Shown here: piece after piece, positions 690 to 36,308 of the stretch
Position numbering within the stretch: position 1 is the first letter of the stretch
Layout of the letters: each line of letters begins with the position of its first letter
NCBI GenBank assembly: GCA_019347695.1
Contig: JAHWKT010000012.1
Location: 1 to 36,308 of the forward strand
Direction: 5' to 3'
Length of the DNA: 36,308 nucleotides
Origin: Actinomycetota bacterium
Lineage (GTDB): Bacteria > Actinomycetota > Nitriliruptoria > Euzebyales > JAHELV01
Made by a program: the position numbers and the translations under genes
The notes under the pieces: generated by a model
Told to the model about the DNA's origin: nothing
Seen by the model: only the letters and a program-made list of their open reading frames with translations
The model's database searches: none

Positions 690-717
690 TTGACTGACGT
701 CCGCGTGCGCATAGCGT
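690..717 (+). promoter_or_regulatory. Probable sigma-70-type promoter of the cell-wall peptidase gene
   Basis: TTGACT at 690-695 and TAGCGT at 712-717 are separated by 16 bases in an otherwise gene-free 148-base gap. Transcription would start near 723-725, downstream of the first possible GTG (721). This favours translation from the GTG at 748. Inferred from sequence only. Confidence 0.45.
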
Positions 718-747
718 ACGGTGGCGACCATCGGTACAGGGGCGGGT

Positions 748-2295
748 GTGCGAGCAGAGACGACCTACGGCAGGCGCGCGCTGCTGGTCGCGCTGGTCGC
801 GCTGTCGCTGATCGTCACAGCCCTGCCCGCGCAGGCGTTGCAGGTCGCGCAGGCCGAGCAGGTGCCGCCGGTCGATCCGTACGCGCCCGCCGAGCCGCAG
901 GCCGTGTGCGATCCCACACCAAAGCCGGGCGTCGTGGGGTTCGCCAAGCTGCTGCTCGAGGCGTACCCCGTGAGTGGCTGGTCGGGCATCAGCCGCGACT
1001 GCGGCGTGCGCGGAGGCAGCGAGCACAAGGAGGGCCGCGCGTTCGACTGGGCGGTCAGCGTCAGCAACCCCCAGCAGAAGGCCGCCGCCGACGATGCGCT
1101 GGCCACGCTGCTGGCGCCCGACGAGGACGGCACCCCGCACGCACTGTTCCGGCGCTTCGGGCTGATGTACATCATCTGGAACCGGCAGATCTTCAGCGCC
1201 GCGCAGCCCGAGGCCGGGTGGCGCCCCTACGGGTGCGACCCGGCGGCGTCGTACGACTCCTGTCACGTCAACCACGTCCACTTCTCGTTCTCGAGCGCCG
1301 GCGCACAGATGCAGACCTCCTGGTGGTCACTGGCGCCCGAGCCCGCGCCACCGGCGACGTTGGTCGAGCGCATCGCCGGCCTGACGCCGGTCGACACCGC
1401 CATCGACATCAGCCAGCGTGCGTTCCCCACTCCGGGAGCGGCGGCGCGGATCTACCTCGCTCACGCCGAGACCGCGCATGAGGCGATGACGGCGGCGGTC
1501 ATGGCCGGCGCGTCGCACGGCGCCGTACTGCTGACCGCTGGCGGCGATGAGCTCGAGGCGACCGTCGACGCGGAGATCCGGCGCCTGCTCGGCGACCAGC
1601 CCGAGGCGACCATCACCGTCGTCGGCGGCCAGGACGCGCTGCCGGACACCCTGGTCGAGCCCTACCGCGACCGGTACGTCGTGGACCGGATCACCGGCGA
1701 CGACCGCTACGCGAGCGCCCGGGCCGCCGCGCGCGCGATGGAGCGTGCCGGCCAGCAGCGAACGGCTGTGCTGGTCGGCGCGGACGCGCTGGACGAGGCG
1801 CTGCCGATGATCGCGGTCGCGGCCGCCAACGACTGGCCGGTGCTGTTCACCGACCGCGACGACCTGCACGACGACACCCGCGGCTTCCTGGTTGAGGCGG
1901 GCGTCACCTCGGTGCACCTGGCGGGCTCGACCGACGCGATCGGTCGTGCCGTGCGCGAGCAGATCGCCGAGCTCGACGACGTCACCGTCCGCCGTCACGG
2001 CGGCGAGGATGCGGCGAAGATCTCGGTCACCGTCGCCGAGCGGTTCTTCGCGATCCCCTCCGCATACGCCGTCGCCCAGCACGACGACACCCCCACCGCC
2101 GCGGTCGCGGCCGCCTACGCCGGCGAACGCCGCCACGCGCCGCTGCTGGTGACCGACGGCGCCACCCTGACCGACCCGGTGACCGCCTACGTCGCCGACA
2201 CGTCCTCGCCCGACGCGTCCGGCCTCGTGTTCGGGGACCGCGACACCGTGCACCGCGAGGTCGAACGCCAGCTGCGCCGGGTGCTGCGCCGCTAG
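748..2295 (+). CDS. Secreted M15-like peptidase with cell-wall-binding-2 repeats
   Basis: An exported cell-wall protein of about 515 residues. A signal peptide (RR followed by a hydrophobic stretch ending ALPAQA) leads to a domain of the ARB-07466/VanY-like type at about residues 45-195. The domain has the zinc-site pattern SEHKEGRAFDW and a terminal HVNHVHF, as in D-Ala-D-Ala carboxypeptidase-like M15 folds, so it probably trims peptidoglycan. The C-terminal ~300 residues hold three cell-wall-binding-2 units (RIAGLTPVDTAIDIS, RITGDDRYASA and a third degenerate copy) that would anchor it to the wall. I prefer the GTG at 748 because AGGGG lies 5 bases upstream and the likely promoter ends at 717; the frame is also open from GTG 721. 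Family role is established; the exact bond cut is inferred. Confidence 0.85.
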   Translation: MRAETTYGRRALLVALVALSLIVTALPAQALQVAQAEQVPPVDPYAPAEPQAVCDPTPKPGVVGFAKLLLEAYPVSGWSGISRDCGVRGGSEHKEGRAFDWAVSVSNPQQKAAADDALATLLAPDEDGTPHALFRRFGLMYIIWNRQIFSAAQPEAGWRPYGCDPAASYDSCHVNHVHFSFSSAGAQMQTSWWSLAPEPAPPATLVERIAGLTPVDTAIDISQRAFPTPGAAARIYLAHAETAHEAMTAAVMAGASHGAVLLTAGGDELEATVDAEIRRLLGDQPEATITVVGGQDALPDTLVEPYRDRYVVDRITGDDRYASARAAARAMERAGQQRTAVLVGADALDEALPMIAVAAANDWPVLFTDRDDLHDDTRGFLVEAGVTSVHLAGSTDAIGRAVREQIAELDDVTVRRHGGEDAAKISVTVAERFFAIPSAYAVAQHDDTPTAAVAAAYAGERRHAPLLVTDGATLTDPVTAYVADTSSPDASGLVFGDRDTVHREVERQLRRVLRR

Positions 2296-2317
2296 CAACG
2301 TCGGGCCCCCGCGCCGT

Positions 2318-2359
2318 TTGGGGAGCCACGCCGTGGTATCCGGACAGCTCGCTCCCCAA
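2318..2359. repeat. Palindrome A (9-bp arms) beside the TetR remnant
   Basis: TTGGGGAGC at 2318-2326 pairs perfectly with GCTCCCCAA at 2351-2359. The loop contains TATCCGGA. A related palindrome lies at 2924-2976 on the other side of the TetR remnant. It could act as a terminator for the two converging genes, but there is no T-run. Confidence 0.6.
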
Positions 2360-2391
2360 CGCGTGCCGACGCTGCCCGACACCGCCGATGA

Positions 2392-2862
2392 TCACCCGGT
2401 GGGGGTGATGAGCAAGGTGAGCAGTTGCCTGAGCTCGTCGTCGGTCAGCGGATCGCCGCCGTGGCCCCGCCACGCCATCTCGCCGACCGGCACCCGGTAG
2501 CACAGCGTCGCCCGGGCCGGCGCGACGGACGGGTCGACCCCCGCGCCCTCCAGCAGCTGCGTGACGTAGGCGACGCGGCGCGCGTCGACCCGCCCGACGA
2601 CCGGCGCCGCGTCGGGGTCGGTCATCGCCCACGCGCGGATGCCGGCCTCGATGCCGCCGTACGCATCGTCGCGACGGAACGTCAGTGCCGTCAGCCTGCG
2701 GAGGCGGTCGATGGGGTCGTCGACCGCGTCGACCTCGGTGATGATCTGCTCGGTGCCGGTGCGCGCCCACGCCGCGAGCAGCGCGGTCAGCAGGTGCCGC
2801 CGGTCGTCGAAGTGCCAGTAGAAGCTGCCCTTGGTCACGCCGCTCGTCGCGCTGCTGGCGTT
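2392..2862 (-). pseudogene. TetR-family regulator, broken at the N-terminus
   Basis: The frame ending at 2392 encodes the second half of a TetR HTH (SGVTKGSFYWHFDDRRHLL) and a full ligand-binding domain ending LTDDELRQLLTLLITPTG. The first ~30 residues of the DNA-binding domain, including helix 1 and most of helix 2, are missing. The frame continues upstream, but its translation there (Pro/Ser/Thr/Cys-rich) is not TetR-like and runs into a palindromic region. No good start codon exists except a GTG at 2838 inside the recognition region. The family usually needs all of this domain to bind operators, so I call it a pseudogene. It converges on the peptidase gene and lies downstream of hutI in the same orientation. 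Confidence 0.7.
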
Positions 2863-2923
2863 CGGTGCCGTCGCCGCGCTGCTGGTGTAGCACGGCAGCG
2901 GCGTCCGTGGGGAGCACGACGCG

Positions 2924-2976
2924 CACGTCGGGGAGCCCGTGCCGCTATCCGGATGGCTGACGCCCCGACGTGCGGG
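2924..2976. repeat. Palindrome B (12-bp arms) at the broken end of the TetR gene
   Basis: CGCACGTCGGGG at 2924-2935 is the exact reverse complement of CCCCGACGTGCG at 2965-2976, with an inner AGCC/GGCT pair. The loop carries CTATCCGGA, shared with palindrome A. It lies 3' of hutI and may end that operon, or be a trace of the event that truncated the TetR gene. Confidence 0.65.
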
Positions 2977-2998
2977 GTGGCTTCCCGACGGGTGACGG

Positions 2999-4192
2999 TC
3001 ACACGATGCGGTCGCCGCTACGCCACACGGCGCGGGGTGGCAGCCCCCACGCCCAGGCGAAGGCGCCCTCGTGCTCGGCGTCCCACCACACGAGGTCGGC
3101 CCGGGCCCCCTCGGTGATGCCGCCGCGATCGTCGAGCCGCAGCGCGCGCGCCCCGCCGTGCGTCGCCGCGGCCAGCGCCTCGGTGACGCTGAGCCCGAAC
3201 GCGGCGACACCCAGGCACACCACCAGGCTCATGTCGGTGGTGCCCACCATGCCCGGGTTGTGGTCGCTGCCCAGCGCGATGGTCACACCGTGGCGCTGCA
3301 GGGCCGCCACGTCGGGCAGCTCGCCGACGGCCAGTGCGGTGCCGGGACACAGCGTGGCGACGACCCCGGCGTCCGCCATCGCGCGGGCGTCGTCGTCGGT
3401 CACGTGCAGCAGGTGGTCGGCGGACGCGGCGCCGACCTCGGCCGCCAGCTGCGCGCCGCCGGTGTGCGCCAGCTCGTCGGCGTGGATGTGCGTCGTCAGC
3501 CCGGCACGCTGCCCCGCGCTCAGCACCCTGCGGGCCTGCGCGACCGTGAAGTAGCCCTCGTCACAGAAGACGTCGCACGCGTCGGCGCCCTGCTGCGCGG
3601 CCGCGCCCAGCCACGAGATTGACGCGTCGATGTGCTCGTCGGGGGTGCCGGTGTGATCCGGCGGCACGGCGTGCGCCGCGAGGAAGGTGACGTGCAGATC
3701 CGGCAGCCCGTCGCCGCCGCGTAGCTCGTCGAGCAGGGCGACCGCGCCGAGCTCGCCGTCGCGCGTCAGGTGGTAGCCGGTCTTGGTCTCGACCGTCGTG
3801 GCGCCACCCGCGGTCCACCCCCTCAGCCGCCGTCGCACGGCCGTGCGCAGCTGCGCCGCGTCGGTCGCGCGGGTCGCGGTGACCGTCGCGCCGATGCCGG
3901 TCTCGGCGTCCGATGCGCCGTACGGGCGCCCCGCGGTCCGCGCGGCGATCTCGGCCAGCCGCGATCCGCCGTACACGGGGTGCGTGTGGGCGTCGATCAG
4001 TCCGGGGGTCACCAGCCCGCCGCCGCAGTCGACACGGTCGTCGCAGGCGACGCTGTCGGCGGCCGGGTCGGCGCCCGCGTCACCGATCCACGCGATGGCG
4101 CCGTCGACGATCGCGACGGCGGCATCGGTCACCACGCCACGCTCGACGCCGGTCCACAGCCGGCCGATGCGGTCGAGCAGGATTCCGGTCAC
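2999..4192 (-). CDS. hutI: Imidazolonepropionase
   Basis: Hydrolyses 4-imidazolone-5-propionate to N-formimino-L-glutamate, the third step of histidine breakdown, in the cytoplasm. The 397-residue length is typical. The amidohydrolase metal site is visible: DAHTHPVYGG (His69, His71), then ETKTGYH, HADEL and GSDHNPG. The start is a GTG 36 bases after the end of hutF. It is the last gene of a minus-strand operon (transporter, hutU, M20 hydrolase, hutF, hutI). The product is the substrate of the HutF encoded just upstream. Confidence 0.96.
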   Translation of the reverse strand: MTGILLDRIGRLWTGVERGVVTDAAVAIVDGAIAWIGDAGADPAADSVACDDRVDCGGGLVTPGLIDAHTHPVYGGSRLAEIAARTAGRPYGASDAETGIGATVTATRATDAAQLRTAVRRRLRGWTAGGATTVETKTGYHLTRDGELGAVALLDELRGGDGLPDLHVTFLAAHAVPPDHTGTPDEHIDASISWLGAAAQQGADACDVFCDEGYFTVAQARRVLSAGQRAGLTTHIHADELAHTGGAQLAAEVGAASADHLLHVTDDDARAMADAGVVATLCPGTALAVGELPDVAALQRHGVTIALGSDHNPGMVGTTDMSLVVCLGVAAFGLSVTEALAAATHGGARALRLDDRGGITEGARADLVWWDAEHEGAFAWAWGLPPRAVWRSGDRIV

Positions 4193-31856: not shown

Positions 31857-33248
31857 TCAGCTCGTGGGCTGCGGACCGCCGACCCACACGGTCTTGGCGT
31901 TGCAGAACTCCTTGATGCCGACGTCTGCCAGCTCACGTCCGTAGCCGGACGTGCCGACGCCGCCGAACGGCAGCTGCGGGTACGACGCCGTCATGCCGTT
32001 GATGAACACCATGCCGGCATGCAGGTCCCGCGCGAACGCGTGCTGCTCGGCCCCGTCGTCGGTCCACGCGTTGGACCCGAGCCCGAACGGCACATCGTTG
32101 GCGACGGCGATCGCCTCGTCGTAGCTGCCGACCTTGAACAGGCTGGCGACCGGACCGAAGACCTCGTCCTCGTACGCGGTGGTGCCCTCGGGGACCTCGG
32201 TGATCACCGTCGCCGGGTACCACCAGCCCTCGCGGTCGGGCACGTCGCCGCCGACCAGCACGTTCGCGCCATGATCGACCGCCTCGTCGACGGCGTCGAT
32301 CACGCCGCTGCGGCCCTGCTCGTTGGCCAGCGGTCCGATGTCGGTGTCGTCGTCCATCGGGTCGCCCAGGGTCTGTGCGGCCATGTGCTGTGCGAACAGG
32401 TCGGCGAACTCGTCGTAGCAGTCGGCGTGGACGATGAAGCGCTTGGCCGCGATGCAGCTCTGCCCGTTGTTCTGACACCGGGCGGTGGTGGCGACCTTGG
32501 CGGCCTCGTCGAGGTCCGCGCTGGGCATCACGACGAACGGGTCGGAGCCGCCGAGCTCCAGCACCACCTTCTTCAGGTACTTGCCCGCCGCCGCGGCGAC
32601 GGCGCGACCCGCGCCCTCGCTGCCGGTGAGCGTGGCGGCCCGGATGCGGTCGTCGGCCAGGACGCTCTCGACCCGGTCACTGCCGATGAACACGTGCTGG
32701 AACGCTCCCCCGGGAAAGCCGGCGCGGCCGAACAGCTGGCCGAGGTACTGAGCCGACTGCGGCACGTTCGACGCGTGCTTGAGCACGCCGGTGTTGCCGG
32801 CCATCAGCGCCGGTGCCGCGAACCGCACCGCCTGCCACAGCGGGAAGTTCCACGGCATGATCGCCAGCACCGGCCCGAGCGGCTGGTAGATGGTCAGCGC
32901 CCGCCGCGCGTTGACCGCCTCGGTGTCATACGACACGTCGGCCAGGAACTCCTCGGCGTGGTCGGCGTAGAAGCGCATCGCCGTGGCGCACTTGTGCACC
33001 TCCGCCTCCGCGGCCGCCAGTGTCTTGCCCATCTCGGTGGTCATCATGCGGGCCGTGTCGTCGGCCTCGTCGTCGACCAGATCGGCCGCGGCGCGCATCC
33101 AGCCGGCGCGGTCGTCGAACGACGTGCCGCGCAGGTCGTGGTGGGCGTCGACCGCTGCGGTCAGCCGACGATCCAGCTCGCCGTCGTCGTGATCGTCGAA
33201 GGTCTCGAGGGTCTCGCCAGTGGCGGGGTTGATCGTTGCGTAAGCCAT
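31857..33248 (-). CDS. gabD: NADP-dependent succinate-semialdehyde dehydrogenase
   Basis: Oxidises succinate semialdehyde (or a similar aldehyde) to the acid. The 463-residue protein begins MAYATINPATGETLETF and has IMPWNFPLWQAVRF, the NAD(P)-loop LTGSEGAGRAVAAAAGK, ELGGSDPFVV (base Glu) and NNGQSCIAAKRF with the catalytic Cys. These match the short GabD2-type enzymes of actinobacteria. I use ATG 33248 since it gives the family N-terminus. It stands alone between the methyltransferase gene and a TauE remnant. A role in GABA or polyamine breakdown is only inferred. Confidence 0.88.
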   Translation of the reverse strand: MAYATINPATGETLETFDDHDDGELDRRLTAAVDAHHDLRGTSFDDRAGWMRAAADLVDDEADDTARMMTTEMGKTLAAAEAEVHKCATAMRFYADHAEEFLADVSYDTEAVNARRALTIYQPLGPVLAIMPWNFPLWQAVRFAAPALMAGNTGVLKHASNVPQSAQYLGQLFGRAGFPGGAFQHVFIGSDRVESVLADDRIRAATLTGSEGAGRAVAAAAGKYLKKVVLELGGSDPFVVMPSADLDEAAKVATTARCQNNGQSCIAAKRFIVHADCYDEFADLFAQHMAAQTLGDPMDDDTDIGPLANEQGRSGVIDAVDEAVDHGANVLVGGDVPDREGWWYPATVITEVPEGTTAYEDEVFGPVASLFKVGSYDEAIAVANDVPFGLGSNAWTDDGAEQHAFARDLHAGMVFINGMTASYPQLPFGGVGTSGYGRELADVGIKEFCNAKTVWVGGPQPTS

Positions 33249-33289
33249 GCGCGCCAGTGTTCCCCGATCGATCACGGGCAAAAGGCGCT

Positions 33290-33712
33290 GTCAGCTGCTG
33301 AGCAGGTAGATCGCGCCCACGACGAGCATGGCGAGCACGATCCGCTCGAACACCCGCGGCGACACCGGTTCGACCAGCCACCGTCCGGTCACGACGCCCG
33401 GTGGGATCAGCAGTGCCAGGGGCACCACCCGCACCATCTGCCAGTCGAGGAGGCCGGCAGCGAGGTAGCCGGGTACACGGCCACCGGCGGACCACCCGCG
33501 TGGGCAACCGCGGAGGTGACGCCGCTGGTCGCACCCGCCGCGACCGCCAGACCCGCCCCGGCCGGCACCCGCGCACGCCGCAGCCTCGGCTCGGCGAGCC
33601 GGTAGACCACGAACACGAGGCTGAGCACGGTCGGGGTGCGAGCTGCCGCCCGGCCGCGGTGCGTGGGCAGCTGTGCCGCAAGCGTGGCCGCCGCGTCGCG
33701 GCGGGCGGTCAT
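33290..33712 (-). pseudogene. TauE/SafE-family exporter, truncated and frameshifted
   Basis: Pieces of a TauE/SafE permease are visible in two frames. The ATG at 33712 leads into SLVFVVYRLAEPRLRRARVP and ATSGVTSAVAHAGGPPVAVY. The frame then shifts near 33475, after which PGYLAAGLLDWQMVRVVPLA and PRVFERIVLAMLVVGAIYLL continue to a stop at 33290. At the junction about 20-25 residues of membrane sequence are missing. The N-terminal half is missing too (about 140 visible residues against ~250). It overlaps the TetR gene by four bases, so the intact gene was probably co-transcribed with it. Not functional. Confidence 0.75.
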
Positions 33713-34293
33713 CGTTCGGGCAGGTGCCGACCGACCAGCTCGACGATCAGCGACTCGGCGCACGCGAACGGCTCCTCGGAGCGGCGGATGCCGGCCACGT
33801 TGAGCGCCCCCTCGAGCACGAGCAGCACCTGCGCGGCGACCGTCGCCGCGTCGGTGACGCCCGCCTCGTCGAGGATCGTCTCGATGCCCCGTTCGATGTT
33901 GTCCAACGAGCCGCGGATGACACCCAGTGCCGGATGCTGGTCGTCGACGAGCTCAGCGGCGGCATTGATCATCGCGCAGCCGCGGAACTCCTGGTCGTCG
34001 GGTGGATCGGCGTAGCCGTCGACGTACGCCAGCACGCGCTCGATGGGATCGTCGCTGACGTCCTCCAACCGCGCCGCGAGCCTGCGCCGCCAGCGCGTCT
34101 CGCGGCGTTGGAGGTAGGCGGTGATCAGCCCGTCCTTGCTGCCGAAGTGGTTGTACAGCGTGCGCTTGGAGACCCCGGCCTCCTCGGCGAGGGTGTCGAC
34201 GCCGGTCGCGGTGATGCCGTGACGGTAGAAGCAGCGCCGTGCGGCGTCGATGATCCGGTTCCGGGTCTCGTCGACCGTGTCCTGAGTGGCCAT
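33709..34293 (-). CDS. TetR-family transcriptional regulator
   Basis: A 194-residue one-domain-pair repressor. HTH: RNRIIDAARRCFYRHGITAT, then GVDTLAEEAGVSKRTLYNHF. The ligand domain (about residues 55-190) contains FRGCAMINAAAELVDD, typical of the branch with a C-terminal TetR_C domain. ATG at 34293; the frame reads further 5' but without a TetR match. Two near-identical operators lie 32-76 bases upstream, so it probably represses itself and a divergent gene. It is coupled (ATGA overlap) to the TauE/SafE remnant. The ligand is unknown. Confidence 0.9.
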   Translation of the reverse strand: MATQDTVDETRNRIIDAARRCFYRHGITATGVDTLAEEAGVSKRTLYNHFGSKDGLITAYLQRRETRWRRRLAARLEDVSDDPIERVLAYVDGYADPPDDQEFRGCAMINAAAELVDDQHPALGVIRGSLDNIERGIETILDEAGVTDAATVAAQVLLVLEGALNVAGIRRSEEPFACAESLIVELVGRHLPER

Positions 34294-34683: not shown

Positions 34684-34956
34684 TCATGTCCGAGCAGTCT
34701 CGCCGTAGCGTTGCCGCGCTGCCTGCTTGGAGACGCCGAGCACGAGCGCGATCTCCCCCCAGCTGCGGCCGTTGCGACGGGCGTCAGCGACCGCGTCCGC
34801 CAGCTCGCCCTCGGCCGTGGCGACGTCGCCGAGCGCCAGCCCGATGCGTCGCAGGTCGCGCGGGTCCTCGGCCGGCGTCTTGGTCGGGTCCACCGAGTCG
34901 AGCCACGCCTCGGCGTCGGCGGCAGCCTGCTCGAGTTGTTCTCGGGTCCTGGGCAT
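34684..34956 (-). CDS. Small HTH DNA-binding protein
   Basis: A 90-residue protein: an acidic helical N-terminal part (TREQLEQAAADAEAWLDSVD) and a C-terminal sigma-region-4-like HTH (GRSWGEIALVLGVSKQAARQ). ATG at 34956 is preceded by GAGG at the right distance. Its promoter carries two palindromes overlapping the -35 and -10 boxes, so I infer autoregulation. It lies about 230 bases from a tRNA fragment that marks a genomic island. Function otherwise unknown; an antitoxin-like role is possible, but no partner toxin is seen. Confidence 0.75.
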   Translation of the reverse strand: MPRTREQLEQAAADAEAWLDSVDPTKTPAEDPRDLRRIGLALGDVATAEGELADAVADARRNGRSWGEIALVLGVSKQAARQRYGETART

Positions 34957-35030: not shown

Positions 35031-35187
35031 CTCGCGTTCCGAAGCCGGTGTGCCGATCATCTATCCGATCCGCATCCAGCGCGCGCTCGTGCTGCCATTT
35101 GTGGACAACTACCGGGTGACCGTTCAGCAAGCCCGACCGCCCCGGTGACTGCGTTCCGCGTGCTCATGACTGGTGTGTCCGGTGAGG

Positions 35188-35232
35188 TGCCCCCGGCAGG
35201 AATCGAACCTGCGACTCCCGACTTAGGAGGTC
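35188..35232 (-). tRNA. tRNA-Arg(CCT) 3' fragment; probable integration-site remnant
   Basis: On the minus strand the sequence runs from the anticodon loop (CTCCTAA, anticodon CCT at 35225-35227) through the variable loop and a perfect T arm (GCAGGTTCGATTCCTGC) to the acceptor strand CGGGGGC and A73. The encoded end continues CCT, not CCA. The distance from anticodon to 3' end is normal. The matching 5' half is absent: only GAC of the anticodon stem is kept, no D arm is found, and no GCCCCCG-like acceptor strand lies at the right distance. So this is not a working tRNA. The element that integrated would lie on the higher-coordinate side. Confidence 0.75.
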
Positions 35233-35436
35233 TCATCTCTCATGGCTCTGACCTGCGCATTTGTGCGACCGAGGCCCCGCCCCGCAGCCCGAGACGAAGA
35301 TCATGCGCGGCGACTGAGCTCTTAAGTGGATGGAGGGGCACACGACCGTGACCAACGGCGATCATGACGTTGATTCTTCAGCGAACACCGCCCACCAGCC
35401 CTCTTAGCTAACACACGTGCGCTGGCTGCGACGCCG

Positions 35437-35730
35437 ATGCTAGCGCGAGCCGCCGCCCGACGGCGCGGTCACGCCGGCGTCATCACCCGTGAACGCTACT
35501 TGGCCGAACGGCGCGCCCGCATCGAAGGCGACGCCGACCCGGCCGAGGCCGCCGACGTACGCGAGGCCGAGCTAGCCGCCCGATGGGCCGACGGCGGCAC
35601 CTATACGTGCGACGGTTGGCAGCTAGACCCACGTCCGCGCGGCATTGGTCCGGCGGACCGCGTAGCCGTTCACGGCGACGGGACGGTTGCGTCGGATGCA
35701 AGCTCGACGGTCGGCGTCTGCGGGCGGTAG
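35437..35730 (+). CDS. Small protein of unknown function in the putative island
   Basis: 97 residues, rich in Arg and Ala at the start (MLARAAARRRGHAG), with a helix-like middle (ITRERYLAERRARIEGDADP) and the segment GGTYTCDGWQLDPRPRG. No family recognised. Third positions are less G/C-biased than in the genes to the left, suggesting different ancestry. No clear Shine-Dalgarno site; start ATG 35437 is tentative. It lies between the tRNA fragment and the NTPase gene. The 35233-35436 stretch before it holds no gene I can support. Confidence 0.45.
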   Translation: MLARAAARRRGHAGVITRERYLAERRARIEGDADPAEAADVREAELAARWADGGTYTCDGWQLDPRPRGIGPADRVAVHGDGTVASDASSTVGVCGR

Positions 35731-35803
35731 GTGCGGGTTCGCGCTGCGGACGGCTTCGCGATAGAAACACCCGATGTGGCATGGATGCATCGTCGGTGTG
35801 TGG

Positions 35804-36308
35804 ATGGCTGCGGCAGACGAGTCCGGTTTCTCCCCCCAAGAGTGGATCGTCCAGCGGGGCGTGCCGCGCAGCCTCGTCGAATTCATCCTCGTGGCTGCGT
35901 TCGTCATCGCCACGGGCGCTGTCTTGTTCAAGCCGGCCCAGTGGCTCTGGGGCCGACGGCCCAGATGGCTCCGTCGCGACGAACCAACGACGACGCCGAG
36001 CACGGCTGACCTCGACGCATGGGAAACACACCTGCGCGTCAAGATGGACGAACTGTGGGTGTCCGGCGACCGCGCGCCGCTGCGGGCCGCCGAGCGTGAC
36101 AGCCCGTCGAGTCTGCAATACATCGGGTTCACGGCGGACACCGCGTTGTTGCATCCCACACGCCGGTCGGCGACCGCCCTGGCGACCGGGGGCTCGATCA
36201 CGCTGGCCGACGACCTGGGCGCCGGCGGGCTGTTCGAACTGCTCGACGAGTCGATGCTGATCGTGGGCGCACCCGGTGCCGGCAAGAGTGTGCTGCTGTG
36301 GCAGATCC
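35804..36308 (+). CDS. Membrane-anchored P-loop NTPase (NACHT/STAND-like), 3' end outside window
   Basis: 168 residues are visible. After a short N-terminus there is one hydrophobic segment at about residues 24-42 (VEFILVAAFVIATGAVLF), then an Arg-rich WGRRPRWLRR, an acidic linker, and a P-loop at 155-162 (GAPGAGKS) followed by VLLWQI. The region before the loop (LADDLGAGGLFELLDESMLI) is like the approach to a NACHT domain (compare the form LLxxGEPGSGKTTLL). NACHT proteins are STAND ATPases, several of which act in anti-phage defence; that role here is inferred from family and island position. The start is ATG 35804 without a Shine-Dalgarno site. A conjugation or other P-loop ATPase is an alternative. 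Confidence 0.65.
   Translation, partial: MAAADESGFSPQEWIVQRGVPRSLVEFILVAAFVIATGAVLFKPAQWLWGRRPRWLRRDEPTTTPSTADLDAWETHLRVKMDELWVSGDRAPLRAAERDSPSSLQYIGFTADTALLHPTRRSATALATGGSITLADDLGAGGLFELLDESMLIVGAPGAGKSVLLWQI

Follow-up and report, generated by a model that had tools for sequence, protein, structure and literature searches.

A displaced tRNA-Arg tail near the end of an actinobacterial contig was very probably left there by the insertion of a mobile element (probability about 0.92). As a relic of site-specific integration it is a textbook case, ordinary in kind. The stretch of DNA analysed here (the window, 36308 bp) is the whole of contig C90 and ends 1.1 kb into the element. The source genome is a fragmented MAG of 3.48 Mb in 215 contigs, 87.7% complete. 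The comparison set consisted of three genomes of the same genus, G001, G002 (public MAG Nitriliruptorales bacterium Ww637, contig JAHELV010000020.1) and G003; the class-wide set comprised 66 genomes. The central feature of the window is the following:

35186-35232, minus strand: displaced tRNA-Arg(CCT) 3' fragment, the core of the attachment site; exact 46-47 bp match to the intact genes of G001, G002 and G003.

The longest exact match to the intact gene is 47 bp in G001 and G003 (35186-35232) and 46 bp in G002 (35187-35232). ARAGORN types all three intact genes as tRNA-Arg with anticodon CCT, and the chance of finding 47 exact bases in the source genome is about 4e-22. Read on the minus strand from 35232 to 35186, the fragment is GACCTCCTAAGTCGGGAGTCGCAGGTTCGATTCCTGCCGGGGGCACC. 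It begins within the 5' half of the anticodon stem (GAC) and takes in the loop CTCCTAA and the sequence from GTC onwards to A73, followed by 1-2 further bases. The match sets in three bases ahead of the anticodon loop; farther 5', the window reads GAGAGATGA, as opposed to ATAGAGCTCC in the intact genes. The initial annotation had proposed a 3' half running from the anticodon loop to A73, with nothing tRNA-like 5' of it. The half is real and slightly longer, extending into the anticodon stem, and neither ARAGORN nor Rfam detects a complete tRNA in the window. Group I introns in tRNA-Arg(CCT) exist, and such an intron was ruled out here, as Rfam gives no intron match and the whole anticodon is inside the fragment.

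In the source genome the fragment stands alone. The 3.48-Mb assembly contains no other match to it longer than 25 bases, and tRNA-Arg(CCT) is absent among 30 typed tRNA loci (35 Rfam hits in all). A tRNA at the end of contig C115 was considered as the intact gene and rejected; it reads Arg(CCG) and is cut off by the contig end. Because the LiaF/PspC-type gene, the immediate 5' neighbour of tRNA-Arg(CCT) in all three congeners, is also missing from the assembly, the intact locus of the source genome is most simply regarded as unassembled. The isolation of the fragment would also fit histories free of any mobile element: a random tRNA duplication that then decayed, or a functional RNA derived from a tRNA. 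We consider this scarcely credible: the cut in the anticodon stem is sharp, integrase-end sequence abuts it directly, a bounded island occupies the corresponding site in G002, and the only Rfam family to match is the plastid ycf2 5'UTR, weakly, in antisense and below the cut-off.

In the proposed insertion, a mobile element equipped with a tyrosine integrase would have entered tRNA-Arg(CCT) in an ancestral genome, with strand exchange in the anticodon stem-loop. Since its attP brought along a second copy of the tRNA 3' part, the element would have restored the tRNA gene at the far (right) end, while the original 3' part would have been pushed to the left end, becoming the fragment at 35186-35232. 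We infer that the restored tRNA gene lies to the right in the source genome, and likewise the island's length and remaining content, all beyond the assembled sequence.

Three features on the right side of the fragment belong to this interpretation:

35233-35269, minus strand: attachment-site arm on the element side; 90% identical to G003:C30:2703-2786 across 84 bp.
35437-35730, plus strand: doubtful ORF of 97 aa on the element side; no family or sequence match, GC3 0.765.
35774-36307, plus strand: 5' part of a gene whose product has a membrane-like segment at its N-terminus and a Walker A motif (GAPGAGKS), element cargo; cut by the contig end.

The element-side arm encodes MRRSEP followed by a stop codon at 35240-35260 and includes the motif GCAGGTCAGAG at 35246-35256. 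Its counterpart in G003 is the 3' end of a tyrosine integrase gene. On contig C30 of that genome, an intact Phage_integrase gene (2757-3620, minus strand, E 2.7e-14) runs up to the tRNA fragment, with no gap between its stop codon and the fragment, which forms a 56-bp direct repeat with the intact tRNA of the same genome on C68. In the window, the 27 bp lying 5' of the core, CAAATGCGCAGGTCAGAGCCATGAGAG, share 24 of 27 bases with the end of the G003 integrase. Because the G003 fragment touches the integrase stop codon and this 27-bp junction recurs in the window, and given the layouts of G001 and G002, sequence comparison places the element on the right of the fragment. Among the 66 genomes of the class, the combination of motif and tRNA half was present in the window and in G003 only, and viral contigs contained neither the exact junction nor the exact tRNA-half pattern.

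Since the fragmented MAG yields a contig that ends just 1.1 kb beyond the fragment, two unrelated contigs might have been joined at the tRNA repeat. Such an assembly artefact is highly improbable: the junction between the integrase 3' end motif and the tRNA 3' half recurs at 90% identity in a separate genome (G003:C30), a version of it adjoins the same dehydrogenase gene in G001, and the match to the intact tRNA stops within the anticodon stem, as recombination predicts.

None of the frames in the 1.1 kb of element sequence contains an integrase body or catalytic motif, and an integrase reading frame in the window was dropped on these grounds. As the body was not found, it has either been lost or the window and G003 have the attP arm alone in common. 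The ORF at 35437 has a weak NCBIfam match (E 0.007); no homologue was found for it, and the codon model makes no call there. The protein encoded from 35774 consists of the membrane-like segment and then GAPGAGKSVLLWQI at the contig end. The gene is cut just past the Walker A motif, and matches to NTPase families are marginal (Pfam AAA_16, E 0.025; PADLOC, E 0.022 over 18 residues). It has no relative in the 65 other class genomes or in plasmid or viral collections and no confident family, and a STAND/NACHT-like NTPase of the kind found in anti-phage proteins is a guess. The weaker GC3 that had been claimed for the right side holds for this gene (0.837, against 0.914 +/- 0.027 for 30 genes to the left). 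For 35437 (0.765) it holds numerically, but the ORF itself is doubtful.

On the left side, the window contains two chromosomal anchors and one accessory gene:

31857-33275, minus strand: aldehyde dehydrogenase, chromosomal anchor; 77-83% identical orthologues in G001, G002 and G003.
33709-34293, minus strand: TetR regulator, chromosomal anchor; 83% identical to G002:C140:57057-57668, adjoining the dehydrogenase in both.
34684-34956, minus strand: small HTH gene, accessory, between the conserved chromosome and the fragment; absent from G001-G003, phage HTH profile.

Contig C32 of G001 keeps the gene order of the window for the dehydrogenase (31857), a methyltransferase (30985), LacI (29381), an ABC ATPase (28020), a kinase (22087) and carotenoid genes (16-20 kb). 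Contig C140 of G002 keeps the order of the left-side genes nearest the fragment, and its DNA similarity with the window ends at about 34390. The initial annotation had the chromosome at lower and the element at higher coordinates. This direction is borne out, but the chromosome does not begin directly at the fragment: judged by these alignments, its conserved part is reached at about 34390 and not already at 35187. The HTH gene in the intervening 0.8-kb strip has a patchy distribution, being 65-83% identical in four genomes from another family of the same order. Because it is missing in the congeners and present in that family, the strip may represent either chromosome specific to this lineage or an earlier insertion.

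The complete arrangement is seen in G002. Its contig C140 contains the intact tRNA (39679-39752), 13 kb of unshared DNA, a same-strand fragment (approximately 52736-52781) and the TetR-dehydrogenase block. ARAGORN calls a 94-nt 'tRNA-Arg(CCG)' at 52688-52781 of this contig; Rfam shows no tRNA there, and we take it as the eroded fragment. The 13-kb interval has a GC content of 0.680, compared with 0.713 and 0.696 in its flanks, and no homologues in the other three loci. It encodes a peptidase S15, a BTAD-AAA regulator, an FAD oxidoreductase and other genes, and no integrase is left in it. In G001, contig C32 contains the fragment (1378-1462) and, on its inner side, the C-terminal relic of an integrase (1209-1337, E 3e-9; RLGHSSIHVTYDVWGHLFP), whose end lies about 40 bp away from the fragment match. 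The dehydrogenase starts at 2588, about 1.1 kb from the fragment.

These layouts agree with the claim of a tyrosine-integrase island edge: G002 has the tRNA-island-fragment order, and on the inner side of the fragment lies an integrase gene in G003 or its relic in G001. The proposed search for an intact tRNA-Arg(CCT) with an integrase gave no result in the source MAG, where the region is unassembled; the relatives have the intact tRNA and, in G003, an intact integrase gene at the fragment. Overall, the fragment and gene order do not occur free of any integrase; G002 is without one, yet it has the full layout.

The 5' neighbours of the intact tRNA, a LiaF/PspC-type gene and two-component genes, are common to G001-G003. 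On the 3' side, the sequences assembled for the congeners differ from one another. G003:C68 is conserved 5' of the tRNA but not 3' of it, and contig C215 of G001 ends 86 bp past the intact tRNA. An empty site was found in none of the three. Because of the G002 island and the differing 3' sides, tRNA-Arg(CCT), between the LiaF/two-component and dehydrogenase blocks, is a repeatedly used insertion site in the genus. A ParA-like and CHAD gene pair (81-92% identical) lies 5' of tRNA-Arg(CCT) in G001 (C215:22786-25109) and about 10 kb 3' of it in G003 (C68:1376-3693), a placement that hints at rearrangement around the site.

The erosion of the fragments bears on the age of the scar. The window fragment is exact, while 6 of 46 bases are changed in G001 and 8 of 46 in G002 (38 kept). 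As both eroded copies adjoin the same dehydrogenase, and all that the window retains of the integrase/attP junction is its final ~27 bp, with the G003-type integrase body missing, the fragment could be an old, vertically inherited attachment scar, whose original element was lost or replaced and whose right-hand DNA is a later arrival or a rearranged remnant. This history is unlikely. Since the fragment in the window is perfectly preserved and those of G001 and G002 are not, a recent insertion is favoured, and the cargo and its GC depart from the chromosome. We retain the displacement of the tRNA tail by an inserting element as the preferred reading.

The motif adjoining the core has a wider distribution. 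In diverse temperate elements, GCAGGTCAGNGG lies a short way 5' of tRNA 3' parts, at preferred distances (window 35246-35256, minus strand; L042; L108-L134). Followed by tRNA T-loop sequence within 12-42 bases, it occurs in 22 viral-contig stretches, with two more if the T loop is relaxed; these 24 include some near-duplicates and at least three that resemble tRNA-like genes, not attP. A related pattern occurs in one genome from another family of the phylum. With the motif in fixed form and the same T-loop pattern, viral contigs contain seven instances of the matching GCAGGTCAGAGG and none of the reversed GGAGACTGGACG. A tyrosine integrase overlaps or lies within 375 bp, on either side, in 13 of the 24 viral stretches. 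The motif starts about 27-28 nt ahead of the anticodon loop in the window, G003, L121, L123, L130, L133 and L134, with the loop positions of L121 and L133 read by eye; in seven other stretches, the T loop is about 25-27 nt from the motif start.

Around 80 unselected viral integrases, GCAGGTCAG is located 3' of six and 5' of eight, compared with 11 of 532 background chunks of similar size. Because this enrichment is only mild, the motif is not universal. It may be an attP element common to one branch of tyrosine integrases, either structural or bound by the integrase, a lead and not a finding. Words resembling TGTGGGCAAAATGTGGGCA show strong enrichment immediately 3' of viral integrases (L135-L214), with TGTGGGCA in 25 of 80 cases against 8 of 532, and are probably arm-type sites.

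Other recombinases are present in the source genome. The short contig C55 carries three tandem tyrosine recombinase domains (717-3050), resembling a recombinase-in-trio element. Because integrase domains also adjoin four other tRNA genes at about 0.2-0.7 kb, namely tRNA-Arg(ACG) on C22, tRNA-Val(TAC) on C116, tRNA-Met(CAT) on C102 and tRNA-Glu(TTC) on C8, further tRNA islands are likely.

The mechanism is textbook, and the result would be of practical use for finding and naming the element when a closed genome becomes available; one end of the unassembled island, in a poorly sampled actinobacterial order, is now fixed exactly. Among the closest known arrangements is the G002 island, which has the same tRNA-Arg(CCT) target and chromosomal flanks as the window. 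It differs in its cargo, its eroded fragment and the loss of the integrase from its 13 kb. Among phage-collection sequences, the best match to the G003 integrase (39.6% identity) is pMLP1 of Micromonospora (xis-int-attP, AY150027). There, too, int is closely followed on its own strand by attP with a tRNA 3' part, and GCAGGTCAGGTGGCCTG is found in the sequence preceding attP. In contrast, pMLP1 uses another tRNA, and its int-attP gap is ~119 bp, whereas the two are flush in G003.

Islander islands are defined by a signature of tDNA, island and displaced fragment, and anticodon-centred sites are their commonest class (2083 of 3919 islands; PMC4383910). The window contains a 3' tDNA fragment that reaches the gene end, and the adjoining interval is absent or different in relatives. 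The intact cognate tRNA on the same strand at the other side is missing from the source MAG and seen in G002. Of the tyrosine integrase expected in the interval, the window holds an end remnant within its 1.1 kb, G003 an intact gene, G001 a relic and G002 nothing. While here only one end is assembled, the integrase is unseen and G003 has its integrase by the fragment instead of next to the intact tRNA, the islands are alike in the displaced same-strand 3' fragment and, on the proposed reading, would also be alike in the regenerated tRNA, the anticodon-centred crossover and the tyrosine integrase (PMC4383910).
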